Below are positions 313 through 23,756 of a DNA stretch of 23,756 bases, piece after piece. The translations under genes were made by a program, and so were the position numbers. This DNA is from Saccoglossus kowalevskii (taxonomy: Eukaryota; Hemichordata; Enteropneusta; Harrimaniidae). Below the pieces are notes generated by a model. That model was not told the DNA's origin and ran no database searches. It saw nothing but the letters and a program-made list of their open reading frames with translations. The stretch's first letter is position 1. Every line of letters begins with the position of its first letter. Location of the stretch: positions 1-23,756 of the forward strand of contig NW_003106629.1 of NCBI RefSeq assembly GCF_000003605.2. The letters run 5' to 3'.

Positions 313-345
313 GGGTGACGGATGAGTGTACAGACTGTAATAGTC

Positions 346-1490: not shown

Positions 1491-1663
1491 CAACTCTATC
1501 GCGTTCCTGTAATGCCTACTTGCATCTGTAATTTCGTGAACTACACAAGTAGCACTGATTTCCTGTGAATCATTTCTATTCTGATCACATGTCAACATCG
1601 CAGCTAACTTAACCTAAAGCTTGCTTGCAAACAATGCAGGAAACACATACAAAGATTCATCAC

Positions 1664-2072: not shown

Positions 2073-2162
2073 GCTGAAAAAGGTGTAATTCAAGTATCAG
2101 TAGTATTAAATAAAGCAAGCTGGCCTGACAACACCGCGTTCTCTAGACCTTAAACATCACTA

Positions 2163-2179
2163 TCCCACTTCTGACACCA
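2163..2179 (-). promoter_or_regulatory. Gypsy-A primer-binding site, tRNA-Leu type
   Basis: The plus strand reads TCCCACTTCTGACACCA, which matches the 3' end of animal leucine tRNAs plus the added CCA; the minus strand is therefore its complement (TGGTGTCAGAAGTGGGA). It sits next to the inner end of the LTR and just upstream of gag, as a retrotransposon minus-strand primer site should. The tRNA sequence is recalled, not searched. Confidence 0.8.
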
Positions 2180-2210
2180 AATAGAGGTATGTAAATGTAC
2201 GGAAAAACAG

Positions 2211-2303
2211 GCGATTGCGAGTTCGCAATGGCAAAAAATTACCATTGAGAGTTCGCAATGGCATAAAACTGACGATTGACAGTTCACTGTAACACATGGA
2301 ACA
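2211..2303. repeat. Three 31-bp tandem units in the Gypsy-A LTR leader
   Basis: Units start at 2211, 2242 and 2273 and share a core close to CGATTGAGAGTTCGCAATGGC; the third is the most diverged. The first contains ATTGCGA-GT-TCGCAAT (2214-2229), a perfect 7-bp inverted repeat. The inverted LTR at 10648-10731 has three equivalent units. They lie downstream of the LTR TATA box and so would be in the transcript. Confidence 0.75.
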
Positions 2304-2311
2304 AAAAGCTG

Positions 2312-2318
2312 ATTTATA
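2312..2318 (-). promoter_or_regulatory. LTR TATA box (TATAAAT)
   Basis: TATAAAT followed by CAGC is conserved between this LTR and the inverted one at 10622, while sequence just upstream differs. That is what one expects of the element's core promoter. Confidence 0.6.
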
Positions 2319-2673
2319 TTTGAGAGAAAGTAGAAAACAGTTTTGAAACTTCGTGTGAACCATCAAAGAAATGCCGACAGTCAGTCAATGGTTGGTGTGG
2401 ATTCACGCAATCCTGCTGTTACATTGCACCAAACATGAAGGGGAGAGATTTTACACAGCATAATAAAAGTCAAACTCTCTCGCAGGGACATTTCATTTGG
2501 TTAATTATTTGAGGAAAAAACGTTGTGACAGGATTTAACTCTCAGCGTTCCGCAGATCCATTGTATTCATATAGTTCTAATGACAACGACCCGCATTGTG
2601 GCATGCAGTCTGCAGACATCGGTACTTTCACTGGCAAACTGCACTGCAATATGAATCATTGCAAATATAAAAA

Positions 2674-3539
2674 CCTGGCCGTTAATTTATATTTGTTAGA
2701 AATAAATAACTTACATATTTTCCAGATAACTGATGTTTGTTTTACAACGTAATTTTAATGATAGGCCCTACTAAGTACTTTGAGGATGTAGTGGACTTTC
2801 GTGCTGACTTTTTTTCATTTTATTTTCTTGTCGTAATCGATGACTTATACCTATAGGCAACCATACGACCCTGTTTTTTTTATTAAATCACGTGTTGATT
2901 TAAAAAAAACACGACTTTTTTAAAAATAAAAAATGATTTACAAGTAACGGAAATCTCGGGAAAGTGCTCGTCGGCTACGCCTCTGAGCCGAAACAATAAC
3001 ATTTTTAATTGGCATAATCCCGCAAATAAATTTGTAGTTCCCAAGTTTATTTTGAAAAATGGAACAAAAAAACCGAAAAAGGGCGATCCAATGACAAGCA
3101 AAACCTGCAAGTTTCTGAATAGCAGAAACTGTTTTGCGCTGATAATTGTATAACAATCGTACTGCAAGTCGGTACAAATAAACTAAGCAAATTGTAACGA
3201 ATTATAGAGCAAACACGACGACCTATAATTCACGACAGTACTGTCAGCAAGCATGACCGACTGGCGGATTGAGTCAACAAATAGTAGGCCTTTTTACTAA
3301 AATTACGATTTTAATTAATATTCAACAACAAAAGTTTCATCGCCGGTATTTATTTAAAAAAAAAACATAGCTTAACCAGGTACTCTCATTATGTAGTTCT
3401 GCTCTGTTGACATTTTCGCTTGGTTCAGGTGCCGTGGCTTACGAGGAAGTTGCTGGGAGCGTAGACAAGACAGTGCTGACTCTGCCAAGTTTAACGGTCA
3501 CACGTCACGTTTTGTACATAAATTGTTTGTTAGTATAAT
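2674..3539. other. Unassigned sequence with short inverted repeats
   Basis: No gene recognised. Open frames on the minus strand here are rich in phenylalanine because the plus strand is A-rich, and match nothing I know. Short inverted repeats are TTAAATCA...TGATTTAA (2883-2903), TCGGCT...AGCCGA (2971-2991) and the perfect 12-bp palindrome GACAGTACTGTC (3234-3245). A decayed small transposon is possible but not shown. Confidence 0.4.
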
Positions 3540-3927
3540 TTTATATATTTATTGCAAAGCCAAATGCCATTGGCCTAAAGAGCAAATACAGTTCCACTTA
3601 ACAATGGTAACAATAGAAATCATTTAAGTTCTGTTTTTCATAACAAAATAAACATAACTCGCTAACTGATTTAAAATTCCATTGTTTTTTGAACTCATGA
3701 GCGAGATAAATTTGTTGTAAGTCGGGTTGGTGCAACACCATACAGACAAAAATTCGGCTTCAACACGTTGATAACGATGGGAAATAGCTATAAAATTATA
3801 TTCGTCTTCAATATAAAATTGATTGCGTTCAACACAGTATTCACACAATCTATTATCGAGGGGGACATTTTCATGTCATTTTCAATACGCAAATTGTGAG
3901 AAGAACAACGTAACCTTGAGAATTGTT
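3540..3927 (-). pseudogene. LINE (non-LTR retrotransposon) ORF2 C-terminal fragment with 3' UTR, copy 1
   Basis: Minus-strand frames read RLRCSSHNLRIE, then (after a frameshift) NVPLDNRLCEYC, IEDEYNFIAISHRYQ, and finally LMSSKNNGILNQLASYVYF. In many animal LINEs the region after the reverse transcriptase has this order: an R-x-S-S-H-x-L motif, a Pro-Leu...Arg-x-Cys-x-x-Cys pair, an E-D-E-Y-H-F block with a C-P-x-Y ligand, and a C-terminal helix rich in Leu and Ser. Here His of EYHF is Asn and the Cys of CPxY is Ser, so the presumed zinc ligands are lost. After the stop the 3' sequence carries TTGCAATAAA with AATAAA at 3553-3548. No RT core is visible upstream, so this is a 5'-truncated dead copy, as is usual for LINEs. 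Confidence 0.72.
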
Positions 3928-5063
3928 TGTTGTGATATGGTATAACCCTCGAAACTAAACTTGTCAAGCAAATAAACTTAAATTGATAACGTGATTACAC
4001 TGTTTATTCAAGGGCGGCCATACTATATTTTCATGTTGCTTTTTATCGGCCATGTACCAAACGGGTTGATTTTTATAAAACCAACACAATAGCTATCTTA
4101 AACATCAAACAATAACTGAATACCATACGCTGAGCAGAAAATATTCTCTCGACTGTGTTACTTTTGGTTCTTGAACCTTTTCAGTCATTTGGAAAGTAAC
4201 GTGTCTAACACCACAACAAATCACGATTACGCAAATAGTTGATCTTTTCAGAGATTGAACACAAGATGATTTGAAAACGACAGTAAATTTTTGTTCAAGT
4301 ATCAGTGATATTTCATGACTAATTGACCTGTGAAAACAGAGTACTATAATGTATTGCAGAATTTTTCTTTACCACTTGTTAAAAGAACTAAACAATTCAG
4401 AATATATCTATTTTACATTATTTTTGAGAACATTGTAGTCTTCCTTTTCTCATAAAATGTGTTAGCTAAATATTTTGTTTCCTAGTAGCAGTAACAAGAA
4501 GCAGCACAATGGATTTTGTTTATTTAACAGTCATTTGACGTAATTAACGTTGACATTAGTCTTTTTGAATAGAGTCTTGCAAAGGCTACAAAAAACATGT
4601 AAAAATTGTTAGTTATTAATCATTAATATTTTGTTTTTATCAAGCTTTTTCTGTTTCTGTTTAAAGCAGTCTCTAGCTTGATGCAGAAATGGGATTCCCT
4701 AAGCGGTTCAATTCATTTGTGAACGCAAGCGGAAAATTGACGTTTCCGTTTGTATTCGCAAAGTTACCTTCTAGTCAGTTATGATACAATGTACTACAAA
4801 GGAATTGAACCATAATTATAGTATCTAATAAAAAATGCACAACAAACGACGACAACCGTAATGTTTGCACGACAAACCGTAATGTTTGCATGAAATATAG
4901 TTTACATGTTTACAAGACATGTAAGTCATTTTTTCTTCAGTTGATAACTTCACCCGCGTTCGATGATTAACAAAAACCCGAGTACAGCACCTATAATGAC
5001 CCGTAATTTGCGGTACAGTTTAACTAGTCCACGTGAGCTCATTTCAGCTACATGAACTAGCTA
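3928..5063. other. Unassigned AT-rich sequence
   Basis: No coding or transposon signature found on either strand. It includes a 20/21-bp two-unit tandem repeat at 4850-4890 and a hairpin TTACATGT...ACATGTAA at 4902-4924. Low-level similarity to a LINE upstream part could not be seen. Confidence 0.4.
4850..4890. repeat. Two-unit 20/21-bp tandem repeat
   Basis: CGACAACCGTAATGTTTGCA is followed directly by the same unit with one extra A (CGACAAACCGTAATGTTTGC...). It is unchanged in the second copy at 16069-16109. Confidence 0.8.
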
Positions 5064-5834
5064 CAGCACTTTTCACTTGAGCTTGCAATTTGTATCGTAA
5101 TAGACGTTAAAATAAATGGGCCAGACAACAATGATCCAGTTTGCAATAATACAAATAAACGAATAGCATAATCACACGATTTTAACATTGTCGAATACGC
5201 ATTTGAGCATTTGTAAAAATATGTTCAAGTAGAGATGATAAAACATGCAGTGGGAAAAAATTCACCAGCTTACTAATCCGTATAATAGTATAACCTGTAT
5301 CTTGAAAAGTTACTGCCATGACCGTAGACTACATCGTTTTGTAATTTGGAAGACCATGTTTAAATGCGTGTCAATTATGTAGCAATTATTCTTTTGAAAA
5401 ATGCGTTTGTGTATGTTGTCACAAATAGAATCTTTTTTGCCTGGCCCATTTATATGGTTGCCACCCATGATAAAAACTGCAAGCTCGAACGAAACGGGCT
5501 GCAAATAATAAAGAATACGCATTTGAGCGTTTGTATAAAAATATGTTCAAGCAGTGGTGATAAAACAGGCAGTGGGAGAAATTTCACCAGCTTACCCAGA
5601 GAGTATCTAATCCGTATAATAATTTAACATTTATCTTAAAGGGTTACTGACATGACCGTAGACTACATCGTTTTGTGATTTGGAAGACCATGTTTAAATG
5701 TGTGTCAAGTCTGTGGTAATTATTTTTTTGAAAATGCGTTTTTGTATGTTGTCACAAATAGAATCTTTGTTGCCTGGCCCATTTATTTGGATGTCATCCA
5801 TGATGCAAACTGCAAGCTCGAACGAAACGGGCTG
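5064..5834. mobile_element. TA-flanked MITE-like inverted-repeat element, copy 1
   Basis: The left end CAGCACTTTTCACTTGAGCT and the reverse complement of the right end, CAGCCCGTTTCGTTCGAGCT, match at about 15 of 20 positions, and the inverted similarity goes on for about 70 bases through AATAAATGGGCCAG. TA dinucleotides flank both ends (5062-5063 and 5835-5836). A TA target duplication and a CAG start are typical of Tc1/mariner-class elements; with no transposase this would be a non-autonomous derivative. The inside is enlarged by a 320-bp tandem duplication that repeats the right terminus, so an original element of about 430 bp is likely. A two-base target site could match by chance. Confidence 0.6.
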
Positions 5835-5845
5835 TAAATAATATA
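5193..5845. repeat. Tandem duplication of about 320 bp within the MITE
   Basis: Unit 1 (5193-5512) and unit 2 (5513-5845) both start GAATACGCATTTGAGC and run to GGGCTG followed by AAATAATA. Both include the ACCGTAGACTACATCG block and the inverted terminal region. They differ by substitutions and small indels, so the duplication is older than the split of the two 11-kb copies, which share it. Confidence 0.88.
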
Positions 5846-6048
5846 GAAAATAAAATCACTACTGTAAATATTAAGGCAACTGGTGTAACAAATTTAGGAG
5901 AGTGTCGACTGACTAATAAAGAGGTCAGGTCCTAAAACTATTTTTATAACACCATTCAGAACTAAATGCTTAACACTAAATTTTAACAAGACTATATGTA
6001 TAACAAGCACATACAAAACAAAGTACATCAACATTTGTTTAAATGCAA

Positions 6049-7108
6049 CTACTTTTTGTTAGTATCTGTTAATACAAAATCTTTAAATCTTTCTGGTATT
6101 TTTATCTCTCTTCTTGGTCTACTCACTACAATACTATCTTTCTCAGCGTTACCCTTTTCACTACTGGGTGCAACATTTATAGAAACAGGATTATATTTTT
6201 TTTCTATAGTATTTATGTCTAGTAGAAATAGAACTTGTACTAGTAATATCACTTGGTGAAACTTTAAGATCTTCCACTGATACTACAGAATTTCAACTAT
6301 TAGTATTTGGTAATTAAATTGAAGTTGACTCAAAAAATATGTTTAGAATCATTATGATCAATATATCGACAAACCCATCGACCATCAGACATAACCATAA
6401 CTTCAAGTCCAAACTGTATCACCAATAAAAAAATCTCCTTAACATTTTGATCATGGAAAGATTTTTGTTATTAAAATGTGGGTGTACAGAATCAAGACGA
6501 GACCTAAGCTTACGTTTCATTTAAAGTTCAGCAGGATAAACTTGGGTTCTCGATTGTGGAATGATTCTATAGCGAAATAATCTCTCATCAATAGTACCGT
6601 ATTTAACCCTATTAAGACCATCTTTAACAATTTCAACGGCTCTTTCAGCCAAACCATTGGACGAAGGATTGCATGGTGCTACTAAAATTTGTGTGATACC
6701 ATTTACATTAAGAAAATGTGAAAATTCATCACTAGTAAAATTACTTCAATTATCTGATGCTAACATTTCAGTAATGCAAGCAGCAAGTTGTAAAGTGGTG
6801 GAGGTCATTCTGTGAGCCTCAATCCACTTAGAATAAGCATCAACTTATTATTGAAAGATTATATTTTCATACTATGAACAAGGTTTATTAGGAATTTCCC
6901 AAGTATGTAATGGGGCTTTTGCTGGTAATTTCTGATTTTGTTAACAAACATCACAACATCTAGCTTTATTTTCAATTCCTGTATACATGCATGGCCATCA
7001 AACATAACTGCGGCCTAAACCTTTCATACGGTTCATTCCAGGATGTGCTGCATGTAGCTCCTAGTGAAGTTCTGTTCTACCTTGCGGTAGTATTGCTACA
7101 CGTGTACC
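6049..7108 (-). pseudogene. Gypsy-B integrase remnant, copy 1
   Basis: The N-terminal zinc-binding region is visible as ELHAAHPGMNRMKGLG and ENKARCCDVC (His/His then Cys/Cys). After HTWEIPNKPCS the text jumps to VDAYSKWIEAH, so the segment carrying the first catalytic Asp of the D,D-35-E core is gone. The second Asp is in LASDN, followed by a stop, and the Glu is in NGLAERAVEIVK (AER codons near 6638-6649). The C-terminal part includes MKRKLRSRLD and a tail RPRREIKIPERFKDFV (6049-6252), which resembles the basic, proline-rich tail of these polyproteins. Multiple stops break the frame. Integrase inserts the cDNA into chromosomes; this copy could not. Confidence 0.78.
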
Positions 7109-7860
7109 TCAAACAATACATCCATCAAATACAGTAAACTCATTACGAATACTGAAAAATGGCCTGTAGCTTGGAGTTTTTTCTGTCCAACCACATAATA
7201 CAAATTCACGGACATGAGCTAACAAAGGATCACGACTTGTCCAAAACTTGATATCATCAGAAGTAAATGGTGATGAGTCTAACTTATCCAACATCAAGCA
7301 CATGTGTTGCTCATAGTTAGACTTTCTGTTAGAAATGGGTACTCTACTTAACGAATCAGCATAACCATGAGATTTCCCAGGCTTGTACTCTATAGTACAC
7401 TCGTATGCTTTTAATATTAAACACCATCTAGTCATTCGAGCAGACAAGGTAGTTGACATAGCTTTCAGTTCACTGAAAAGACCCAACAATGATTTATCAT
7501 CTATGACAATAGTGAAAATTGCCCAATAAATATTTGTGAAATTTACGTACACCAAATAGAATAGCCCATTGATATTTTTCAATATGAGCGTAATTGCATT
7601 CAGCATTATTTAAAGTTCTGGATGAAAATGAAATAGGTTACTCACTACTATCTTTGTATTTGTGGGACAGTACAACACCAAGATCAAACAGAGATGCATC
7701 ACAGCTCAGTACTAAATCTTCATGGGAATTGAAATGTACCAACAACTGATGTGACTGAAGAAGTTGTTTTGCTGCTTCAAATGATTTGTCCTGCCTTGGA
7801 CACCAGTGCCACTTTACATTTTTTTAACAACAAATGTAATGGTCCTAACACTGTTGATCG
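7109..7860 (-). pseudogene. Gypsy-B RT thumb and RNase H remnant, copy 1
   Basis: The segment opens with the RT thumb/connection (KNVKWHWCPR, SFEAAKQLLQSHQLLVHF), then the RNase H start LVLSCDASLF with the first catalytic Asp at 7692-7703. SSRTLNNAE gives the catalytic Glu region. After an in-frame stop the open stretch at 7606-7109 holds FTIVIDDKSLL (third acid; the usual TDH is IDD here) and YADSLSRVP (last acid). It runs on through the linker to integrase (RDPLLAHVREFVLCGW). A run of seven T at 7819-7825, one more than in copy 2, breaks the thumb frame. RNase H removes RNA from the RNA-DNA hybrid during reverse transcription. Confidence 0.83.
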
Positions 7861-8490
7861 GTTAGGTAAAACCTATGATAATAAGCTACAGTTACAGATT
7901 TAGGTTTGTCAATTTTTTGTATAGCGTCAATTTTTCCAAATTTTTTTTCAGAATATAGCATGTAGCATGTAATACACAATTTTATCTTTCATAAACAATC
8001 AAACCATCAAGCATTGGCTAAACGACTTAACACTTTATGGAAGTTTGCAAGATACTGGGAATTATCAAAATACACCAGGTATGTTACGCAGGACGCCCTC
8101 TCTAGTTCTCTGAAAAATTGCTGGAGCTGAACTCACACTAAAATCTAAGCGGTTATACCTAAATAGACACATGTGTGTAGTTATTGTAAGAAGTGTTTCT
8201 GACTCTTCATTCAAAATTAATTGATTATAAACATGATACAGATCAAGTTTAGTGAATTTGTGTGCACCTCCTGCCAGTTGTACCATCAAATCCTCAAAAG
8301 GAGGAATATGATATTGTTCAATAGGTGATGCTTTATTGAAAGTTAACTTGTAATCACCACAAATCCTCACAGTGCCATCAGTTTTGGGTACAGGTACAAC
8401 TGGAGTAGCCCAATCAGAATGTGTGCCTGACTTAATAATACATTCAAGAGGTAAATTCTTAACAATCTTATTGTCAAACTGAACAATTAC
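7861..8490 (-). pseudogene. Gypsy-B reverse transcriptase remnant, copy 1
   Basis: Clear RT landmarks are HSDWATPVVPVPK and TDGTVRICGDYK (fingers), FEDLMVQLAGG followed by FTKLDL (first catalytic Asp), YNQLILNEES, LFRYNRLDFSVSSAPAIFQR and LRNIPGVF. The tyrosine-x-Asp-Asp box lies one frame over as YFDN (8061-8072), so it is out of frame and its second Asp is Asn. Upstream, VKNLPLE is followed almost at once by SGTHSDW; about 100 residues between protease and RT fingers that the family usually has are missing. Copy 1 has extra changes from the usual residues (AGGA, DLY, RLDF) where copy 2 keeps AGGG, DLS and RLAF. Not functional. Confidence 0.88.
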
Positions 8491-8787
8491 TTATTTACGA
8501 CCTATAATGTTCACACGTTCAACAGTGTAGGTTTTCAGTCGAATAGGACTGTCCTCTAAATGTGAATCTTGTAACTTGTGAAACGATGACTGATTCAGCA
8601 AGGTAAATGGAAAACCAGTATCCACTTCAAAATTAGTGTTCACTCCATTAATCCATAAATTAACTGTATACCCACCTGACTTGGAATCGCTACACTTCCC
8701 AAGTAGTTCATCGCACTGACAGTGACCAAAAACATCGTCATATGGGTATGGTTGGGTATCACTACTCTCCCCATTTGATTCAGTCAT
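8491..8787 (-). pseudogene. Gypsy-B aspartic protease (retropepsin) remnant, copy 1
   Basis: A 98-codon open stretch contains a 40-residue acidic leader (MTESNGESSD, YPYDDVFGHCQCDELLG), then VNLWINGVNTNFEVDTGFPF, with the catalytic DTG at 8622-8614. Retropepsins have D-T-G-A/S here; the following Phe is unusual. It then continues TLLNQSSFHKL and DSPIRLKTYT, the usual next strands. The second half of the domain is short: a TAA follows IIGRK, and the same frame continues VIVQFDNKIVKNLPLE before the deletion into RT. The protease would cut the gag-pol polyprotein. The stop, the Phe and the shortened fold suggest no activity. Confidence 0.82.
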
Positions 8788-8799
8788 GTGATTACCAGC

Positions 8800-9513
8800 C
8801 TAATCTCGCTTTAGCTTTTTACATGCAACTTTAATGTGACCATATTGTTTTTACAATAGTGACAAATTTCATTTTGGAATTTGCAAACATGTGGTAGGTG
8901 ATTTCCCAGACAACGATAACATTTTTCTGCTACTTGCTTTTGATTAGTGACTACAGTGTTTTTCCGACATGGTCCTGGCTTGCCAGGCTTCCCCTTCCAT
9001 TTTGATGCCTTGAACGCATTCGCACTGACAGGAGTAGAGTATAATAAGTTCATGACCTTCAAATTTCGTGTTGTGGTTTCAACTGCCACTGCAATTTTCA
9101 GTGCATATTTCCAAAACAAAGTTGTTTCCATCAGTAATTTACGTTATGTACTCTGATCATTAATACCACAAACTAGGCGATCGGGTAACAAGGGTCGTAC
9201 CAAAATTACAGTGTTCTGAAATTTTACGTAATTCAGCCTTGTATGATTGTACACTTTCACCCGGTTTGTGGACACGCGAATTAAACTTATAACGTTCAAC
9301 AATTTCACTTGGTTTCGGCGTGTAGTGACCTTTCACAAGATTTATTTTTAAATCAACGCGTATGTTCGGAACCCACGGAACACAGCACGTTTTCGATCAT
9401 GAACATCACTAGAATTTGCGTGAAGGAACATGGTCCATCACTTCACAGTAGTCCTCCAAAAACTGTTCCAGTTGGTTAAACTGACTCAGCGTTTATATCA
9501 GTGAACTCGCCAT
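8800..9513 (-). pseudogene. Gypsy-B gag remnant with zinc knuckles, copy 1
   Basis: The ATG at 9513 opens MASSLI and meets a stop; the same frame resumes TLSQFNQLEQFLEDYCEVMD. Further fragments are KPSEIVERYKFNSR and RKISEHCNFG, then in another frame NRLVCGINDQ and MNLLYSTPVSANAFK, followed by the nucleocapsid. The first knuckle is CYRCLGNHLPHVC (C-x2-C-x3-H-x4-C). The second starts CHYCK but its end, GHIKVACKK, lies one frame over, so a frameshift splits it. The I-V-E-R-Y-K-F and L-V-C-G-I motifs are typical of gag in K02A2.6-like Gypsy elements of animals. At least three frame breaks make it non-coding. Gag would form the particle and bind element RNA. Confidence 0.82.
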
Positions 9514-9532
9514 TTTAAGTACTAGTAATAAA

Positions 9533-9549
9533 CCTCGTCCTCGACGCCA
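9533..9549 (-). promoter_or_regulatory. Gypsy-B primer-binding site, tRNA-Ser-like (decayed)
   Basis: The minus strand reads TGGCGTCGAGGACGAGG, 20 bases before the gag ATG. Related Gypsy elements have TGGCGACGAGGATGGG, complementary to the 3' end of a serine tRNA; 13 of 16 bases agree. The position supports it; the primer identity is inference. Confidence 0.55.
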
Positions 9550-9551
9550 AA

Positions 9552-9715
9552 TATGTCGTGGCCTGTGGTAATGCAGAGATGCAACCAACGAAAGTTTGCA
9601 GTAACAAACGATAGACTTTACGTTATTCAAAACATGGCTTCACCAACCAACAGATACAATGCGCATGCGTGAATAACAAGAGCGGGAAATATGCTAATAA
9701 GACCAATATACTACA
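9552..9715 (-). repeat. Candidate Gypsy-B 5' LTR, copy 1
   Basis: On the minus strand sequence from TGTAGTATATTGGTCTTATT (starting at 9715) ends next to the primer-binding site. It contains TGCGCATGCG (near 9660), a GC-rich palindrome resembling an NRF1-type activator site. No matching 3' LTR was found, so the outer edge is a guess based on a TG start; it could extend to about 9810. Confidence 0.35.
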
Positions 9716-10448
9716 ATCATACCACGGGAGGTAAATGTAGGTCAATTCCAAAGGTAGATTCGATGTTTCCTGTTCCGTTTTTGAGTCATGACGAATGCAC
9801 AGAGTCATACATGATCTGTCTCTGAAACTTGAAGTATATAGTTAGTTAACACCCAACAACTATCTCATCGAAAAAAGGTCGATCACGGGCCATATGCAGA
9901 AAACAATCTTTGGAAATGATAAAACTATACGCTAAAAAATAAACTTATCAACTGGGCATGGGATCACCCCAACGCGTCAAGTGATTATCCAATCACATAC
10001 GTGAATTCACGTAGCAAGTAATGAGCTCAACTTGATCTTTTGATGTGTGGCTTTCTAACCGTGTTTTACTATAGAACGATAATTAAATATAATATCCTTA
10101 CCATTGCTGCGCATCAGCGTCATAAGCGTGCGTGCATATATTACTTGTCATCGCCGTGGCATCGTAGTTCAACGATACGAGGATATATATATATGATACG
10201 CATTAGCTCCGTTATTAGTTTTATTGTTACGGAGTGCCTGTGTAGCTCAGATCTATATTTGATGGAAGCAGGCCTGACTGGAACGCTATACACGTTGACG
10301 CTTCCGGCGATTAGTGTTAGCTTGTAAATAAACTACGAGGGTTTCTACAAACATAGTCTATGCAAGCGATTAGTAACACCTCTAATAAACAACTGCCCCG
10401 GGTAACAATCATAGATTAGACCATGGAGCAACAGTAAAATAAAATCTA
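9716..10448. other. Unassigned sequence with two adjacent palindromes
   Basis: No gene recognised. A plus-strand frame at 10040-10327 is preserved in both copies, but so is everything else at this divergence, and it resembles no family. GTGATT-ATCC-AATCAC (9981-9996) is followed at once by TACGTGAATTCACGTA (9998-10013), a perfect 16-bp palindrome that is 14 bp in copy 2. A short TA run sits near 10182. Confidence 0.4.
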
Positions 10449-10731
10449 TTTTTATATTTGTAATGATTCATATTTCAGTGCAGTTTGCCGGTCAAGCGTA
10501 CCGCTGTCTACAGACGCACGCTACATTCTGGGTTTTGTCATTAGAACTATGAATACATTGGTTGACTGCTGGCATACCTTTGATGGTTCACACATCGTTT
10601 CAAAACTCTCCCTCCCAGCAATATAAATCAGCCTTTCGTTTTATGTGTTACTGTGAACTCTCAGTCGACTGTTTTTGTGGCATAGCGAACTCTCAATCGT
10701 CAGTTTTTTTCCATTGCTAACTCGTAATCTG
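10449..10731 (+). repeat. Gypsy-A LTR, right copy (plus orientation), copy 1
   Basis: The reverse complement matches the left LTR from TTTTTATATTTG at its start, through TGATTCATAT and the AGTTCTAATGACAA-type block, the TATA box (10622-10628) and the three 31-bp units. It lacks the 173-bp segment found in the left LTR and about 45 bp at the inner end, including the primer-site joint; GTGGGAGTAG at 10731 may be a remnant of that joint. Its internal side faces right, opposite to the left LTR. Confidence 0.75.
10622..10628 (+). promoter_or_regulatory. LTR TATA box (TATAAAT), right LTR copy 1
   Basis: Same TATAAATCAGC motif as in the inverted left LTR, followed by the conserved leader with GTGTTACTGTGAACTCTCAG. 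Confidence 0.55.
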
Positions 10732-10890
10732 TGGGAGTAGGTTCTTGGGTCAGATGTTTCATACTCAAAGACGATATGTAAAATAATCACCAATATTTAT
10801 TGACTTCTTTTGTTGAGAAAACATGCAGTGTGATAATTGAAAATCTAATGAGCATAAATTATGAGAGATATTTAAATTTGAATAAAGTGA

Positions 10891-10950
10891 AATAAATAAT
10901 AAATAAAAAATAAATAAATAAATAAATAAATAAATAAATCAATAAATAAA
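10891..10950. repeat. (AAAT)n microsatellite, copy 1 only
   Basis: About fifteen AAAT units with a few interruptions. The matching site in copy 2 (near 22100-22130) has no array, only AGAAATACCATATAAATACC, and this accounts for most of the length difference between copies. Confidence 0.92.
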
Positions 10951-11665
10951 CCCAGCCGTTGACTTTAAATTACAAGTCGTATAGAGAAATATTCAAATCT
11001 AGGAACACAAAATAAATGACTGAAAACAATTGGCAACTTATGAAAAGTACAATATTTTGTCGGTGTTTTTGAGCTCTCAGGTAATTGGTTAATACATGAA
11101 CAGCTCTCCCAGTACTGTATATTACCCCCTGCTAATGTGGGCTCTCTTGACAAGAGTTTTACTGCGGCGTTACGTGTAAAGGACTGTCTGGGGTTATGAT
11201 GAGCACTGGAAAACATCCAAACATTTTAAAACACAACTGATTAAGATATTTTGATTACATTGAGAGGTTTTCTATGCAATTCATTGAAGTAACACAATTT
11301 ATTGTAGTGTCGGGTGATAGTAGGATGGGTATTTTGTTTCAGGTCGGAGGATTATTTAAAAGGTTTAAAATGATACAAATTTGCCTATGAAAAAGTGCAT
11401 TTATTTCCAGCAAATTGAATATTGAAATCCGTTACAAATCTAACTACAATTTCGAATTACTCTTTAATACTCATGGCGAACTGATTCGCTCCGACGACTG
11501 AAGCATGAATGGTAATGTTAATTTAATATATATTTTAGAAATAATATCAAATTAGATAAAATGATGAATAAATTAAATAGAACAGCATTGAGGTATAAAA
11601 ATGACAAATGATCCGCAGACACAGTCGCTTTGTAAAAATCAGTGCTTCATACATTTTCTTGCAGA

Positions 11666-11686
11666 CGGCGTTGGTGCCTAACGCCG
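11666..11686. other. 7-bp perfect stem hairpin
   Basis: CGGCGTT and AACGCCG are separated by GGTGCCT. Unchanged in copy 2 at 22847-22867. No U-run follows and no function is implied. Confidence 0.4.
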
Positions 11687-12573
11687 CTCCCCCGACTGGA
11701 GGTCTGTGTTGAAAAGTAATCCTTTGTTGTTGTGGTGTACGTAAAACGATGAACAATTTATTATTTTTTGTTAACATCACTTGACGCATTAACGACCCAC
11801 CCCTAGACGTAACAATTTCAACTCAATAGTAAAAATCCGTTGTCAAAAAACTAAATAATCACAACCCCATCGGAATCCATTTTCCACTCTTACTCACAAG
11901 CTACATTATGGCTACCGTAGACCATTCATCGAAACGAGTGGTCTAGGTGTATACTGTGACCAATGCCGTGGACTCACTGTGTGTAATGCTTAATGATAAG
12001 CCTAGAATAAGTATCACGTGAAACCAAATAAATATCATTCTAAAAAAACGTACTAATACTCAATTGACTCTGGATTCATTGACCTGGGGAAAACTACCTT
12101 TGCGATAAATATGCAATAATCGTCTAGAAGTTCCTATGAATACTAACGAATTTCACATAACCATTGTTGCTGTTGTTTTTGTGTTTTTTTTTGCTTTTTC
12201 CGATTTTTAAATGTTGTACATAATCTTCGGTAATAACTACGAAAGCTTCACATCTTCAACAGAACGTAGCGGTTAAAACTAACAGATAGAGTCTGTTTTG
12301 TTTGATCACCGCTTAAGCAGCATATAATGTTTGTTATGTTTTATTTTAGCTCATTTAAAAACTACGACCGGTGTCAATATACTGTCTGTGGTGTACTTCA
12401 GAATGACAGATCTAGATCTTATTGTGACCGAATGTACAGTACTACTTTAACCCAACTTCCCTCTCGCTTCCGCCTTTCAATCGTTTTTTTTTTTGCTCGC
12501 TTTGCAACCGCTTGTTGAATTCGGATTTGACCGGATAATTTCCGCTTCATAATTTCGAATGCACAAACCCGGA

Positions 12574-13481: not shown

Positions 13482-13893
13482 CATAAAACTGACGATTGAC
13501 AGTTCACTGTAACACATGGAACAAAAAGCTGATTTATATTTGAGAGAAAGTAGAAAACAGTTTTGAAACTTCGTGTGAACCATCAAAGGCATGCCGACAG
13601 TCAGTCAATGGTTGGTGTGGATTCACGCAATCCTGCTGTTACATTGCACCAAACATGAAGGGGAGAGATTTTACACAGCATAATAAAAGTCAAACTCTCT
13701 CGCAGGGATATTTCATTTGGTTAATTATTTGAGGAAAAAACGTTGTGACAGGATTTAACTCTCAGCGTTCCGCAGATCCATTGTATTCATATAGTTCTAA
13801 TGACAACGACCCACATTGTGGCATGCAGTCTGCAGACATCGGTACTTTCACTGGCAAACTGCACTGCAATATGAATCATTGCAAATATAAAAA
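13482..13893 (-). repeat. Gypsy-A left LTR, copy 2 (truncated by the gap)
   Basis: It matches 2262-2673 with four substitutions. The primer-site side, the first 31-bp unit and most of the second are missing because they would fall in the N gap. The TATA box lies at about 13532-13538. Confidence 0.75.
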
Positions 13894-14759
13894 CCTGGCC
13901 GTTAATTTATATTTGTTAGAAATAAATAACTTACATATTTTCCAGATAACTGATGTTTGTTTTACAACGTAATTTTAATGATAGGCCCTACTAAGTACTT
14001 TGAGGATGTAGTGGACTTTCGTGCTGACTTTTTTTCATTTTATTTTCTTGTCGTAATCGATGACTTATACCTATAGGCAACCATACGACCCTGTTTTTTT
14101 TATTAAATCACGTGTTGATTTAAAAAAAACACGACTTTTTTAAAAATAAAAAAATGATTTACAAGTAACGGAAATCTCGGGAAAGTGCTCGTCGGCTACG
14201 CCTCTGAGCCGAAACAATAACATTTTTAATTGGCATAATCCCGCAAATAAATTTGTAGTTCCCAAGTTTATTTTGAAAAATGGAACAAAAAAACCGAAAA
14301 AGGGCGATCCAATGACAAGCAAAACCTGCAAGTTTCTGAATAGCAGAAACTGTTTTGCGCTGATAATTGTATAACAATCGTACTGCAAGTCGGTACAAAT
14401 AAACTAAGCAAATTGTAACGAATTATAGAGCAAACACGACGACCTATAATTCACGACAGTACTGTCAGCAAGCATGACCGACTGGCGGATTGAGTCAACA
14501 AATAGTAGGCCTTTTTACTAAAATTACGATTTTAATTAATATTCAACAACAAAAGTTTCATCGCCGGTATTTATTTAAAAAAAAAAACATAGCTTAACCA
14601 GGTACTCTCATTATGTAGTTCTGCTCTGTTGACATTTTCGCTTGGTTCAGGTGCCGTGGCTTACGAGGAAGTTGCTGGGAGCGTAGACAAGACAGTGCTG
14701 ACTCTGCCAAGTTTAACGGTCACACGTCACGTTTTGTACATAAATTGTTTGTTAGTATA
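13894..14759. other. Unassigned sequence, copy 2 of 2674-3539
   Basis: Nearly identical to the first copy. One extra A in the run near 14150 breaks the phenylalanine-rich minus-strand frame at a different place, which argues that the frame is not a gene. The palindrome GACAGTACTGTC is at 14455-14466. Confidence 0.4.
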
Positions 14760-15148
14760 TTTTATATATTTATTGCAAAGCCAAATGCCATTGGCCTAAA
14801 GAGCAAATACAGTTCCACTTAACAATGGTAACAATAGAAATCATTTAAGTTCTGTTTTTCATAGCAAAATAAACATAACTCGCTAACTGATTTAAAATTC
14901 CATTGTTTTTTGAACTCATGAGCGAGATAAATTTGTTGTAAGTCGGGTTGGTGCAACACCATACAGACAAAAATTCGGCTTCAACACGTTGATAACGATG
15001 GGAAATAGCTATAAAATTATATTCGTCTTCAATATAAAATTGATTGCGTTCAACACAGTATTCACACAATCTATTATCGAGGGGGACATTTTCATGTCTT
15101 TTTCAATACGCAAATTGTGAGAAGAACAACGTAACCTTGAGAATTGTT
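14760..15148 (-). pseudogene. LINE ORF2 C-terminal fragment with 3' UTR, copy 2
   Basis: Same landmarks as copy 1: RLRCSSHNLRIE, NRLCEYC, IEDEYNF, LMSSKNNGILNQLASYVYF. Near the C-terminus it reads FAMKNRT where copy 1 has FVMKNRT. The same His-to-Asn and Cys-to-Ser changes and the same frameshift before NVPLDNR are present, so the element was dead before the copies separated. AATAAA is at 14774-14769. No RT core is visible. Confidence 0.72.
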
Positions 15149-16282
15149 TGTTGTGATATGGTATAACCCTCGAAACTAAACTTGTCAAGCAAATAAACTT
15201 AAATTGATAACGTGATTACACTGTTTATTCAAGGGCGGCCATACTATATTTTCATGTTGCTTTTTATCGGCCATGTACCAAACGGGTTGATTTTTATAAA
15301 ACCAACACAATAGCTATCTTAAACATCAAACAATAACTGAATACCATACGCTGAGCAGAAAATATTCTCTCGACTGTGCTACTTTTGGTTCTTGAACCTT
15401 TTCAGTCATTTGGAAAGTAACGTGTCTAACACCACAACAAATCACGATTACGCAAATAGTTGATCTTTTCAGAGATTGAACACAAGATGATTTGAAAACG
15501 ACAGTAAATTTTTGTTCAAGTATCAGTAATATTTCATGACTAATTGACCTGTGAAAACAGTACTATAATGTATTACAGAATTTTTCTTTACCACTTGTTA
15601 AAAGAACTAAACAATTCAGAATATATCTATTTTACATTATTTTTGAGAACATTGTAGTCTTCCTTTTCTCATAAAATGTGTTAGCTAAATATTTTGTTTC
15701 CTAGTAGCAGTAACAAGAAGCAGCACAATGGATTTTGTTTATTTAACAGTCATTTGACGTAATTAACGTTGACATTAGTGTTTTTGAATAGAGTCTTGCA
15801 AAGGCTACAAAAAACATGTAAAAATTGTTAGTTATTAATCATTAATATTTTGTTTTTATCAAGCTTTTTCTGTTTCTGTTTAAAGCAGTCTCTAGCTTGA
15901 TGCAGAAATGGGGTTCCCTAAGCGGTTCAATTCATTTGTGAACGCAAGCGGAAAATTGACGTTTCCGTTTGTATTCGCAAAGTTACCTTCTAGTCAGTTA
16001 TGATACAATGTACTACAAAGGAATTGAACCATAATTATAGTATCTAATAAAAAATGCACAACAAACGACGACAACCGTAATGTTTGCACGACAAACCGTA
16101 ATGTTTGCATGAAATATAGTTTACATGTTTACAAGACATGTAAGTCATTTTTTCTTCAGTTGATAACTTCACCCGCGTTCGATGATTAACAAAAACCCGA
16201 GTACAGCACCTATAATGACCCGTAATTTGCGGTACAGTTTAACTAGTCCACGTGAGCTCATTTCAGCTACATGAACTAGCTA
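15149..16282. other. Unassigned AT-rich sequence, copy 2 of 3928-5063
   Basis: Same content as in copy 1, including the 20/21-bp tandem repeat at 16069-16109. A two-base deletion near 15560 and scattered substitutions distinguish it. No gene seen. Confidence 0.4.
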
Positions 16283-17053
16283 CAGCACTTTTCACTTGAG
16301 CTTGCAATTTGTATCGTAATAGACGTTAAAATAAATGGGCCAGACAACAATGATCCAGTTTGCAATAATACAAATAAACGAATAGCATAATCACACGATT
16401 TTAACATTGTCGAATACGCATTTGAGCATTTGTAAAAATATGTTCAAGCAGAGATGATAAAACATGCAGTGGGAAAAAATTCACCAGCTTACTAATCCGT
16501 ATAATAGTATAACCTGTATCTTGAAAAGTTACTGCCATGACCGTAGACTACATCGTTTTGTAATTTGGAAGACCATGTTTAAATGCGTGTCAATTATGTA
16601 GCAATTATTCTTTTGAAAAATGCGTTTGCGTATGTTGTCACAAATAGAATCTTTTTTGCCTGGCCCATTTATATGGTTGCCACCCATGATAAAAACTGCA
16701 AGCTCGAACGAAACGGGCTGCAAATAATAAAGAATACGCATTTGAGCGTTTGTATAAAAATATGTTCAAGCAGTGGTGATAAAACAGGCAGTGGGAGAAA
16801 TTTCACCAGCTTACCCAGAAAGTATCTAATCCGTATAATAATTTAACATTTATCTTAAAGGGTTACTGACATGACCGTAGACTACATCGTTTTGTGATTT
16901 GGAAGACCATGTTTGAATGTGTGTCAAGTCTGTGGTAATTATATTTTTGAAAATGCGTTTTTGTATGTTGTCACAAATAGAATCTTTGTTGCCTGGCCCA
17001 TTTATTTGGATGTCATCCATGATGCAAACTGCAAGCTCGAACGAAACGGGCTG
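16283..17053. mobile_element. TA-flanked MITE-like element, copy 2
   Basis: It has the same ends (CAGCACTTTT and the reverse complement of AAACGGGCTG), the same TA flanks (16281-16282 and 17054-17055), and the same internal tandem duplication (units from 16412 and 16732). The only differences from copy 1 are scattered substitutions. Confidence 0.6.
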
Positions 17054-17267
17054 TAAATAATATAGAAAATAAAATCACTACTGTAAATATTAAGGCAACT
17101 GGTGTAACAAATTTAGGAGAGTGTCGACTGACTAATAAAGAGGTCAGGTCCTAAAACTATTTTTATAACACCATTCAGAACTAAATGCTTAACACTAAAT
17201 TTTAACAAGACTATATGTATAACAAGCACATACAAAACAAAGTACATCAACATTTGTTTAAATGCAA

Positions 17268-18327
17268 CTACTTTTTGTTAGTATCTGTTAACACAAAATC
17301 TTTAAATCTTTCTGGTATTTTTATCTCTCTTCTTGGTCTACTCACTACAATACTATCTTTCTCAGCGTTACCCTTTTCACTACTGGGTGTAACATTTATA
17401 GAAACAGGATTATATTTTTTTTCTACAGTATTTATGTCTAGTAGAAATAGAACTTGTACTAGTAATATCACTTGGTGAAACTTTAAGATCTTCCACTGAT
17501 ACTACAGAATTTCAACTATTAGTATTTGGTAATTAAATTGAAGTTGACTCAAAAAATATGTTTAGAATCATTATGATCAATATATCGACAAACCCATCGA
17601 CCATCAGACATAACCATAACTTCAAGTCCAAACTGTATCACCAATAAAAAAATCTCCTTAACATTTTGATCATGGAAAGATTTTTGTTATTAAAATGTGG
17701 GTGTACAGAATCAAGATGAGACCTAAGCTTACGTTTCATTTAAAGTTCAGCAGGAGAAACTTGGGTTCTCGATTGTGGAATGATTCTATAGCGAAATAAT
17801 CTCTCATCAATAGTACCGTATTTAACCCTATTAAGACCATATTTAACAATTTCAACGGCTCTTTCAGCCAAACCATTGGATGAAGGATTGCATGGTGCTA
17901 CTAGAATTTGTGTGATACCATTTACATTAAAAAAATGTGAAAATTCATCACTAGTAAAATGACTTCAATTATCTGATGCTAACATTTCAGTAATGCAAGT
18001 AGCAAGTTGTAAAGTGGTGGAGGTCATTCTGTGAGCCTCAATCCACTTAGAATAAGCATCAACTATTATTGAAAGATTATATTTTTCATACTATGAACAA
18101 GGTTTATTAGGAATTTCCCAAGTATGTAATGGGGCTTATGCTGGTAATTTCTGATTTTGTTAACAAACATCACAACATCTAGCTTTATTTTCAATTCCTG
18201 TATACATGCATGGCCATCAAACATAACTGCGGCCTAAACCTTTCATACGGTTCATTCCAGGATGTGCTGCATGTAACTCCTATAGAAGTTCTGTTCTACC
18301 TTGCGGTGGTATTGCTACACGTGTACC
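17268..18327 (-). pseudogene. Gypsy-B integrase remnant, copy 2
   Basis: Same layout as copy 1: His/His-Cys/Cys region, missing first-Asp segment, VDAYSKWIEAH, LASDN, NGLAERAVEIVK, and the basic tail (17471-17268). Two single-base differences near 18064 and 18088 leave NLSIIVDAYSKW in one frame here, whereas copy 1 is shifted. Copy 2 is thus closer to the ancestral text at this point, though a stop still lies just before it. The His-containing ELH of copy 1 reads ELL here at the first position. Confidence 0.77.
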
Positions 18328-19080
18328 TCAAACAATACATCCATCAAATACAGTAAACTCATTACGAATACTGAAAAATGGCCTGTAGCTTGGAGTTTTT
18401 TCTGTCCAACCACATAATACAAATTCACGGACATGAGCTAACAAAGGATCACGACTTGTCCAAAATTTGATATCATCAGAAGTAAATGGTGATGAGTCTA
18501 ACTTATCCAACATCAAGCACATGTGTTGCTCATAGTTAGACTTTCTGTTAGAAATGGGTACTCTACTTAACGAATCAGCATAACCATGATATTTCCCAGG
18601 CTTGTACTCTATAGTACACTTGTATGCTTTTAATATTAAACACCATCTAGTCATTCGAGCAGACAAGGTAGTTGACATAGCTTTCAGTTCACTGAAAAGA
18701 CCCAACAATGATTTATCATCTGTGACAATAGTAAAAATTGCCCAATAAATATTTGTGAAATTTACGTACACCAAATTGAATAGCCCATTGATGTTTTTCA
18801 ATATGAGCGTAATTGCATTCAGTATTATTTAAAGTTCTGGATGCAAATGAAATAGGTTACTCACTACTATCTTTGTATTTGTGGGACAGTACAACACCAA
18901 GATTAAACAGAGATGCATCACAGCTCAGTACTAAATCTTCCTGGGAATTGAAATGTACCAACAACTGATGTGACTGAAGAAGTTGTTTTGCTGCTTCAAA
19001 TGATTTGTCCTTCCTTGGACACCAGTGCCACTTTACATTTTTTAACAACAAATGTAATGGTCCTAACACTGTTGAAAGGT
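18328..19080 (-). pseudogene. Gypsy-B RT thumb and RNase H remnant, copy 2
   Basis: The thumb is in frame here: MLGPLHLLLKNVKWHW through SCDASLFNLGVVLSHKYKD (19069-18857), because the T run has six bases instead of seven. Catalytic CDAS is at 18911-18922. An in-frame stop after DSSE is shared with copy 1. The second open stretch (18801-18328) has FTIVTDDKSLL, nearer the usual T-D-H than copy 1's IDD, and YADSLSRVP. The element is still non-functional because of the shared stop. Confidence 0.83.
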
Positions 19081-19706
19081 TAGGTAAAACCTATGATAAT
19101 AAGCTACAGTTACAGATTTAGGTTTGTCAATTTTTTGTATAGCGTCAATTTTTCCAATTTTTTTTCAGAATATAGCATGTAACCTAAATACACAATTTTA
19201 TCTTTCATAAACATTCAAACCATCAAGCATTGGCTAAACGACTTAACACTTTATGGAAGTTTGCAAGATACTGGGAATTATCAAAATACACCAGGTATGT
19301 TACGCAGGACGCCCTCTCTAGTTCTCTGAAAAATTGCTGGAGCTGAACTCACACTAAAAGCTAAGCGGTTATACCTAAATAGACACATGTGTGTAGTTAT
19401 TGTAAGAAGTGTTTCTGACTCTTCATTCAAAATTAATTGATTATAAACATGGGACAGATCAAGTTTAGTGAATTTGTGTCCACCTCCTGCCAGTTGTACC
19501 ATCAAATCCTCAAAAGGAGGAATATGATATTGTTCAACAGGTGATGCTTTATTGAAAGTTAACTTGTAATCACCACAAATCCTCACAGTGCCATCAGTTT
19601 TGGGTACAGGTACAACTGGAGTAGCCCAATCAGAATGTGTGACTGACTTAATAATACCTTCAAGAGGTAAATTCTTAACACTCTTATTGTCAAACTGAAC
19701 AATTAC
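19081..19706 (-). pseudogene. Gypsy-B reverse transcriptase remnant, copy 2
   Basis: The fingers and palm carry RICGDYK, FEDLMVQLAGGGHKFTKLDL, YNQLILNEES and RLAFSVSSAPAIFQR. The altered catalytic box YFDN is at 19277-19288 and out of frame, as in copy 1. AGGG, DLS and RLAF match the usual family residues better than in copy 1, so copy 1 has gained private changes. The same deletion joins the end of protease to the RT fingers. Confidence 0.88.
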
Positions 19707-20003
19707 TTATTTACGACCTATAATGTTCACACGTTCAACAGTGTAGGTTTTCAGTCGAATAGGACTGTCCTCTAAATGTGAATCTTGTAACTTGTGAAAC
19801 GATGACTGATTCAGCAAGGTAAATGGAAAACCAGTATCCACTTCAAAATTAGTGTTCACTCCATTAATCCATAAATTAACTGTATACCCACCTGACTTGG
19901 AATCGCTACACTTCCCAAGTAGTTCATCGCACTGACAGTGACCAAAAACATCGTCATATGGGTATGGTTGGGTATCACTACTCTCCCCATTTGATTCAGT
20001 CAT
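19707..20003 (-). pseudogene. Gypsy-B aspartic protease remnant, copy 2
   Basis: The 98-residue translation is identical to that of copy 1, including DTGFPF (DTG at 19838-19830) and the stop after IIGRK. Identity over 297 bases most likely reflects recent common origin and not selection, because the flanking domains are broken. Confidence 0.82.
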
Positions 20004-20015
20004 GTGATTGCCAGC

Positions 20016-20727
20016 CTAATCTCGCTTTAGCTTTTTACATGCAACTTTAATGTGACCATATTGTTTTTACAATAGTGACAAATTTCATTTTGGAATTTGC
20101 AAACATGTGGTAGGTGATTTCCCAGACAACGATAACATTTTTCTGCTACTTGCTTTTGATTAGTGACTACAGTGTTTTTCCGACATGGTCCTGGCTTGCC
20201 AGGCTTCCCCTTCCATTTTGATGCCTTGAACGCATTCACACTGACAGGAGGAGTAGAGTATAATAAGTTCATGACTTTCAAATTTCGTGTTGTGGTTTCA
20301 ACTGCCACTGCAATTTTCAGTGCATATTTCCAAAACAAAGTTGTTTCCATCAGTAATTTACGTTGTGTAGTCTGATCATTAATACCACAAACTAGGCGAT
20401 CGGGTAAGGGTCGTACCAAAATTAGTGTTCTGAAATTTTACGTAATTCAGCCTTGTATGATTGTACACTTTCACCCGGTTTGCGGACACGCGAATTAAAC
20501 TTATGACGTTCAACAATTTCACTTGGTTTCGGCGTGTAGTGACCTTTCACAAGATTTAATTTTAAATCAACGCGTATGTTCGGAACCCACGGAACACAGC
20601 ACGTTTTCGATCATGAACATCACTAGAATTTGCGTGAAGGAACATGGTCCATCACTTCACAGTAGTCCTCCAAAGACTGTTCCAGTTGGTTAAACTGACT
20701 CAGCGTTTATATCAGTGAACTCGCCAT
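20016..20727 (-). pseudogene. Gypsy-B gag remnant with zinc knuckles, copy 2
   Basis: The ATG at 20727 and early stop are shared with copy 1. A longer open stretch survives (20419-20027), containing PDRLVCGINDQTTQRKLL, WKYALKIAVAVETTT, the first knuckle CYRCLGNHLPHVC and the start of the second (CHYCK). Small deletions near 20407 and 20424, relative to copy 1, rejoin PDRLVCG here but break the frame upstream. The second knuckle is split by the same frameshift as in copy 1. Three extra bases near 20250 add a proline (PPVSV). Confidence 0.82.
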
Positions 20728-20746
20728 TTTAAGTACTAGTAATAAA

Positions 20747-20763
20747 CCTCGTCCTCGACGCCA
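20747..20763 (-). promoter_or_regulatory. Gypsy-B primer-binding site, tRNA-Ser-like, copy 2
   Basis: Identical to copy 1 (TGGCGTCGAGGACGAGG on the minus strand), at the same distance from the gag ATG. Confidence 0.55.
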
Positions 20764-20765
20764 AA

Positions 20766-20929
20766 TATGTCGTGGCCTGTGGTAATGCAGAGATGCAACA
20801 AACCAAAGTTTGCAGTAACAAACGATAGACTTTACGTTATTCAAAACATGGCTTCACCAACCAACAGATACAATGCGCATGCGTGAATAACAAGAGCGGG
20901 AAATATGCTAATAAGACCAATATACTACA
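20766..20929 (-). repeat. Candidate Gypsy-B 5' LTR, copy 2
   Basis: Sequence nearly identical to 9552-9715, with the same TGTAGTATATTGG candidate start and the same TGCGCATGCG palindrome. The outer edge is uncertain for the same reason. Confidence 0.35.
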
Positions 20930-21663
20930 ATCATACCACGGGAGGTAAATGTAGGTCAATTCCAAAGGTAGATTCGATGTTTCCTGTTCCGTTTTTGAGT
21001 CATGACGAATGCACAGAGTCATACATGATCTGTCTCTGAAACTTGAAGTATATAGTTAGTTAACACCCAACAACTATCTCATCGAAAAAAGGTCGATCAC
21101 GGGCCATATGCAGAAAACAATCTTTGGAAATGATAAAACTATACGCTAAAAATTAAACTTATCAACTGGGCATGGGATCACCCCCAACGCGTCAAGTGAT
21201 TATCCAATCACAGACGTGAATTCACGTAGCAAGTAATGAGCTCAACTTGATCTTTTGATGTGTGGCTTTCTAACCGTGTTTTACTATAGAACGATAATTA
21301 AATATAATATCCTTACCATTGCTGCTCATCAGCGTCCTAAGCGTGCGTGCATATATTACTGGTCATCGCCGTGGCATCGTAGTTCAACGATACGAGGATA
21401 TATATATATGATACGTATTAGCTCCGTTATTAGTTTTATTGTTACGGAGTGCCTGTGTAGCTCAGATCTATATTTGATGGAAGCAGGCCTGACTGGAACG
21501 CTATACACATTGACGCTTCTGGCGATTAGTGTTAGCTTGTAAATAAACTACGAGGGTTTCTACAAACATAGTCTATGCAAGCAATTAGTAACACCTCTAA
21601 TAAACAACTGCCCCGGGTAACAATCATAGATTAGACCATGGAGCAACAGTAAAATAAAATCTA
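20930..21663. other. Unassigned sequence, copy 2 of 9716-10448
   Basis: No gene recognised. The central palindrome here is ACGTGAATTCACGT, one base pair shorter on each side than in copy 1 because of a single change. Confidence 0.4.
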
Positions 21664-21947
21664 TTTTTATATTTGTAATGATTCATATTTCAGTGCAGTT
21701 TGCCGGTCAAACGTACCGCTGTCTACAGACGCACGCTACATTCTGGGTTTTGTCATTAGAACTATGAATACATTGGTTGACTGCTGGCATACCTTTGATG
21801 GTTCACACATCGTTTCAAAACTCTCCCTCCCAGCAATATAAATCAGCCTTTCGTTTTATGTGTTACTGTGAACTCTCAGTCGACTGTTTTTGTGGCATAG
21901 CGAACTCTCAATCGTCAGTTTTTTTTCCATTGCTAACTCGTAATCTG
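21664..21947 (+). repeat. Gypsy-A LTR, right copy (plus orientation), copy 2
   Basis: Matches 10449-10731 with few changes, including the TATA box (about 21837-21843) and the 31-bp units. It again faces away from the left LTR. Confidence 0.75.
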
Positions 21948-23756
21948 TGGGAGTAGGTTCTTGGGTCAGATGTTTCAATACTCAAAGACGATAATGTAAA
22001 ATAATCACCAATATTTATTGACTTCTTTGTTGAGAAACATGCAGTGTGATAATTGAAAATCTAATGAGCATAAATTATGAGAGATATTTAAATTTGAACC
22101 AACTGAATAAAGTAGAAATACCATATAAATACCAGCCGTTGACTTTAAATTACAAGTCGTATAGAGAAATATTCAAATCTAGGAACACAAAATAAATGAC
22201 TGAAAACAATTGGCAACTTATGAAAAGTACAATATTTTGTCGGTGTTTTTGAGCTCTCAGGTAATTGGTTAATACATGAACAGCTCTCCCAGTACTGTAT
22301 ATTACCCCCTGCTAATGTGGGCTCTCTTGACAAGAGTTTTACTGCGGCGTTACGTGTAAAGGACTGTCTGGGAGTTATGATGAGCACTGGAAAACATCCA
22401 AACATTTTAAAACACAACTGATTAAGATATTTCGATTACATTGAGAGGTTTTCTATGCAATTCATTGAAGTAACACAATTTATTGTAGTGTCGGGTGATA
22501 GTAGGATGGGTATTTTGTTTCAGCTCGGAGGATTATTTAAAAGGTTTAAAATGATACAAATTTGCCTATGAAAAAGTGCATTTATTTCCAGCAAATTGAA
22601 TATTGAAATCCGTTACAAATCTAACTACAATTTCGAATTACTCTTTAATACTCATGGCGAACTGATTCGCTCCGACGACTGAAGCATGAATGGTAATGTT
22701 AATTTAATATATATTTTAGAAATAATATCAAATTAGATAAAATGATGAATAAATTAAATAGAACAGCATTGAGGTATAAAAATGACAAATGATCCGCAGA
22801 CACAGTCGCTTTGTAAAAATCAGTGCTTCATACATTTTCTTGCAGACGGCGTTGGTGCCTAACGCCGCTCCCCCGACTGAAGGTCTGTGTTGAAAAGTAA
22901 TCCTTTGTTGTTGTGGTGTACGTAAAACGATGAACAATTTATTATTTTTTGTTAACATCACTTGACGCATTAACGACCCACCCCTAGACGTAACAATTTC
23001 AACTCAATAGTAAAAATCCGTTGTCAAAAAACTAAATAATCACAACCCCATCGGAATCCATTTTCCACTCTTACTCACAAGCTACATTATGGCTACCGTA
23101 GACCATTCATCGAAACGAGTGGTCTAGGTGTATACTGTGACCAATGCCGTGGACTCACTGTGTGTAATGCTTAATGATAAGCCTAGAATAAGTATCACGT
23201 GAAACCAAATAAATATCATTCTAAAAAAACGTACTAATACTCAATTGACTCTGGATTCATTGACCTGGGGAAAACTACCTTTGCGATAAATATGCAATAA
23301 TCGTCTAGAAGTTCCTATGAATACTAACGAATTTCACATAACCATTGTTGCTGTTGTTTTTGTGTTTTTTTTTTGCTTTTTCCGATTTTTAAATGTTGTA
23401 CATAATCTTCGGTAATAACTACGAAAGCTTCACATCTTCAACAGAACGTAGCGGTTAAAACTAACAGATAGAGTCTGTTTTGTTTGATCACCGCTTAAGC
23501 AGCATATAATGTTTGTTATGTTTTATTTTAGCTCATTTAAAAACTACGACCGGTGTCAATATACTGTCTGTGGTGTACTTCAGAATGACAGATCTAGATC
23601 TTATTGTGACCGAATGTACAGTACTACTTTAACCCAACTTCCCTCTCGCTTCCGCCTTTCAATCGTTTTTTTTTTTTGCTCGCTTTGCAACCGCTTGTTG
23701 AATTCGGATTTGACCGGATAATTTCCGCTTCATAATTTCGAATGCACAAACCCGGA
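21948..23756. other. Unassigned right-hand part of the duplicated unit, copy 2
   Basis: Equivalent to 10732-12573, without the AAAT array. No gene recognised. It ends with the window, at the base equivalent to 12573. Confidence 0.45.

Follow-up and report, generated by a model that had tools for sequence, protein, structure and literature searches.

The two haplotypes of a divergent region can be assembled into two separate contigs whose read pairs lead to the same surroundings, and which may then be placed adjacently, as described in the sections of the survey by Kelley and Salzberg (2010, PMC2864568) that deal with duplicated contained contigs. In those sections, the contained contigs called mis-assembled numbered 2,303 out of 4,418 for chicken, 2,298 out of 5,467 for chimpanzee, 394 out of 1,297 for cow and 2 out of 80 for dog, the remaining ones being either consistent where placed or without data. 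The falsely duplicated contigs are given there with a median identity of 98.1%; few exceeded 99.5% and most were shorter than 2 kb, with a few reaching up to 28 kb in cow. Further, the marks of false duplication listed in the relevant part of a second study (PMC9516828) include a gap that separates the copies within one scaffold.

The window analyzed here, a stretch of 23,756 nucleotides from Saccoglossus kowalevskii, consists of two sequenced stretches, 1-12573 and 13482-23756, with an N run between them, and has a CpG observed/expected ratio of approximately 0.86, which together with features of its elements points to animal, probably invertebrate, DNA. Its layout, as observed directly in the sequence and its alignments, is the following:

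1-12573, no strand: contig 1, made up of the left flank and copy A
1-2261, no strand: left flank, with a single occurrence in the window
2262-12573 (10312 bases), plus strand: copy A, within contig 1, from the global alignment to copy B
12574-13481, no strand: run of 908 N, assumed to be the assembly gap between the contigs
13482-23756 (10275 bases), plus strand: copy B, which makes up contig 2 to the extent that it is visible in the window and is contained in copy A, from blastn and global alignment

When the window was compared with itself by blastn, positions 13482-22131 matched 2262-10916 with 98.7% identity and positions 22125-23756 matched 10946-12573 with 99.5% identity, both on the same strand. 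In the global alignment, copy B was aligned end to end and in direct order with 2262-12573, with 10170 identities, 92 substitutions and 23 indel events totalling 63 bases in 10325 columns. Identity thus amounted to 99.10% of the 10262 ungapped columns, or 98.5% when all columns were counted, which bears out the original prediction that the two units carry the same elements in the same order at roughly 98-99% identity and are separated by an N gap, found here as the 908 N at 12574-13481. The "11.2-kb unit" of that prediction holds as the start-to-start spacing, which is 11220 bases with the N included, but not as the length of the repeat, since the sequenced match covers 10.3 kb. Chance similarity of the copies was ruled out: when the bases of copy A were shuffled 20 times, local matches to copy B scored no higher than 39.9 bits.

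This arrangement is similar to the duplicated contained contig in that one contig lies wholly inside its neighbour, copy B aligning at full length within contig 1, here in direct order and with an identity of 98.5-99.1% vs. the median of 98.1% in the sections cited above (PMC2864568). It differs in length, with 10.3 kb here compared to mostly less than 2 kb, and a few cases up to 28 kb in cow, in the same sections of that survey. With the heterotype false duplication, as characterized in part of PMC9516828, it shares adjacent copies with a gap between them on one scaffold, and the differences found here look biological. With a tandem segmental duplication, it has in common the direct order and an identity of about 99%, but here no sequenced junction connects the units. 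Because of the contained-contig geometry, the intervening gap, the common end and a divergence within the range of haplotype duplicates, we infer, with a probability of roughly 0.7, that the two copies are two haplotypes of one locus from a heterozygous diploid individual that were scaffolded end to end. The original prediction had offered this reading and a recent tandem duplication as the two alternatives; these proved to be the right pair, and the four features just named favour haplotypes.

All boundaries of the repeat coincide with the edges of the N run or with the end of the window: position 13482, which corresponds to 2262, is the first base after the N run, 12573 is the last base before it and 23756 is the window end. 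The two stretches have their last base in common (12573 being equivalent to 23756), and the final 90 aligned bases are identical. The first base of copy B corresponds to 2262, which is the last base of the second unit in a 30-bp tandem array (2203-2285). Since both stretches stop on the same base and copy B starts inside this array, the ends of the repeat look like assembly breakpoints rather than mapped duplication junctions. The shared last base also suggests that a contig or scaffold ends together with the window, contig 2 presumably finishing there, and that the break in both contigs occurred at one and the same sequence. A short basic frame without a Pfam match is located on the minus strand at this very sequence (12419-12571), and it appears to resemble the N-terminus of hAT-like transposases. 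Because of this resemblance, a dispersed element may be what causes the break of both contigs.

If the copies are indeed haplotypes, the assembler would have made one contig from the common left flank and haplotype 1, and a second one from haplotype 2 only, which would have begun where the short 30-bp repeat array interrupts assembly. Both contigs would have stopped on the same base because the sequence that follows was not resolvable. The scaffolder would then have linked both contigs to one neighbourhood and, instead of overlaying them, would have placed contig 2 after contig 1 with a gap of 908 bases.

The same end points were also considered in the light of a real tandem duplication, in which the copies would be neighbouring units, or else would belong to a longer array as its first unit and a later one that may have collapsed. 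Each unit would measure approximately 11.2 kb and include a hard-to-assemble piece of about 0.9 kb. Such a piece would break each contig there, in agreement with the identical break point in both copies, and collapse of an array would also account for the sequence ending at that base. The direct order fits a tandem arrangement, but its best support is the size of the gap, as 908 is a positive and non-round value and was therefore probably estimated from read pairs. This counts against haplotypes, since pairs connecting the left flank with haplotype 2 would put contig 2 approximately 10.3 kb inside contig 1 and not 0.9 kb after it, while for a true tandem copy mate pairs would indeed be expected to indicate a distance of +908. 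A further caution regarding haplotypes comes from the survey itself, which in the sections cited covers vertebrates, with mis-assembled contigs mostly below 2 kb and a share of wrong ones that ranges from 2.5% (dog) to 52% (chicken) (PMC2864568).

Against a tandem duplication, every repeat boundary falls either where the N run begins or ends or where the window stops, so that no sequenced junction between units is present in the window. A gap between copies is, moreover, typical of false duplications according to the part of PMC9516828 that lists their marks, although this argument is partly circular because the gap served as a selection criterion in that same part of the study. Neither was a second copy of the left flank (1-2261) found in the window, where its best matches extend over no more than 49-50 bases and lie at the repeat edge (2213-2260); copy B is thus not preceded by another flank copy in the sequence at hand, though one could sit in the gap. 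Taken together, we regard a real tandem duplication as unlikely, at odds of somewhat better than one in five, and continue to prefer two haplotypes of one locus.

The differences between the copies, which are directly observed, were distributed as follows. All 92 substitutions comprise 50 transitions and 42 transversions, and the longest indel, of 35 bases, falls in a microsatellite, where it is accompanied by 10 substitutions at 10880-10950:

10890-10950, plus strand: AAAT microsatellite, longer in copy A, with 35 bases missing from copy B, from the alignment

Outside the microsatellite, 82 substitutions were found over 10241 positions of copy A (0.80%), 47 of them transitions (p = 1e-5 against an expectation of 1/3). 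Their density varied along the copies, with 18 substitutions in 2262-6199 (0.46%), 61 in 6200-10500 (1.42%), none in 10501-10879 and 3 in 10951-12573 (0.18%). This clustering gave variance/mean ratios of 2.0 in 250-bp bins, 2.15 in 500-bp bins and 4.01 in 1000-bp bins; among 2000 random placements, 0, 7 and 0, respectively, were as high. Eight of the 82 substitutions could be polarized with an outgroup base from an internal repeat, which assigned 4 derived changes to copy A and 3 to copy B and left 1 unclear. In the segment 10501-10879, four single-base indels between the copies lie within 58 bases (10760-10817), possibly as a result of poor base quality beside the microsatellite.

As the differences are rich in transitions, clustered and include private changes on both copies, they look like biological variants on both sides rather than errors of one copy. 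These features, together with the difference in microsatellite length, would be as expected for haplotypes. Regional clustering also fits gene conversion between tandem units, and the pattern as a whole agrees equally with haplotypes of mosaic ancestry and with paralogues undergoing gene conversion, allelic and paralogous variants being alike in this regard. It also bears on the notion that the same sequence was assembled twice, with the differences being sequencing errors (a homotype false duplication). In agreement with such an origin, 17 of the 21 indels outside the microsatellite involve a single base and 10 of the 21 occur in runs of at least 4 of one base, as read off the sequence contexts. 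However, regional clustering and the change in microsatellite length speak against it, and it was rejected on the transition excess and the private changes on both copies, which leave it with a next to negligible probability.

Several other repeats were found by self-comparison, along with the remains of a retroelement:

2203-2673, plus strand: left arm of an inverted repeat pair, with the 30-bp tandem array (2203-2285) at its edge, from self-comparison; counterpart in copy B at 13482-13893
10449-10735, minus strand: inverted partner of 2203-2673, approximately 77-84% identical in the aligned pieces; in copy B at 21664-21945
5193-5848, plus strand: older 333-bp tandem duplication with two units about 86% identical, in both copies, also at 16412-17067
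6049-9396, minus strand: decayed Ty3/gypsy remnant with protease-, reverse transcriptase (RT)-, RNase H- and integrase-like pieces, from Pfam matches below cut-off and stop-free pieces
17268-20610, minus strand: Ty3/gypsy remnant in copy B, from comparison of its pieces with copy A and PDB matches of its RT piece
1671-1976, minus strand: charged 101-codon frame in the left flank, with no Pfam match up to E 1

The inverted repeats lie approximately 7.8 kb apart and enclose the gypsy remnant, with the 30-bp array at the outer edge and a left arm that is about 170 bases longer. The two arms could stem from separate insertions of one family, or they could be the long termini of a single large element. 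The 333-bp tandem pair, to which a weaker inverted match was seen at 5062-5164, is an older local duplication common to copies A and B.

The richness in repeats, with inverted repeat copies near both ends of the stretch, is the kind of setting in which two dispersed paralogous copies, that is, a segmental duplication located elsewhere in the genome, might have been wrongly joined in one scaffold. Nevertheless, the match spans all of contig 2 and leaves no unmatched flank, which haplotypes explain more simply, and we therefore hold dispersed paralogues to be very improbable.

With regard to coding content, the remnant gave Pfam matches to RVT_1, RT_RNaseH, Asp_protease_2, gag-asp_proteas and rve_3, all of them below the gathering cut-off, and stops and frame changes split it into separate frames. 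The 141-aa RT piece of copy B matched 4ol8_A (RT/RNase H; 2.5e-12) and 7q5b_A (Ty3-G Gag-Pol; 9.1e-12), which ranked ahead of the other 6 of the 8 PDB sequences matched by it. On these PDB matches, the piece is assigned to the Ty3-like reverse transcriptases, its Pfam match to RVT_1 lying below the cut-off. A scan of viral contigs yielded no relatives of the RT piece. The region 6049-9396 also includes what we take to be a gag-like zinc knuckle, and the minus-strand frame at 1671-1976 presumably resembles the gag N-termini of gypsy-type retroelements. Within 1-12573, the remnant is not flanked by a pair of direct repeats with the size of LTRs. The gypsy content is thus a remnant and not a working element, with neither flanking LTRs nor an intact gag-pol.

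Copy A contains nine stop-free pieces with 60 codons or more. Five of them had both ends at the corresponding position in copy B, three had one end matched and one was without a counterpart of that length. Most breaks are therefore common to both copies and few differ, so that the element had for the most part decayed by the time the copies separated. It strikes us as rather improbable that this dead remnant, lying between the inverted repeat copies, belongs to a tandem array of approximately 11.2-kb units from which assembly recovered no more than the first unit and a later one, perhaps in collapsed form.

Pfam was searched with 19 queries, which covered, whole or in part, 13 of the 39 stop-to-stop frames that overlap 1-12573 and reach 70 aa or more, together with four frames of copy B. 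Neither an intact gene nor a Pfam match at the curated cut-off was found among these queries. Matches to KaiC ATPase, A2L_zn_ribbon, DUF3945 and DUF3105 were dismissed as chance-level (E 0.027 to 0.7). Likewise, no RNA genes were detected by Rfam at gathering scores and no tRNA by ARAGORN with the bacterial code.

Either way, the repeat is an ordinary feature: it would be an assembly artefact of a known type or, failing that, a tandem duplication of modest size in repeat-rich DNA. Should the copies be haplotypes, as we favour, any copy counts, repeat annotation or apparent segmental duplications derived from this scaffold would come out twice too high, and the 82 substitutions over 10241 positions would provide a sample of local heterozygosity of approximately 0.8%.
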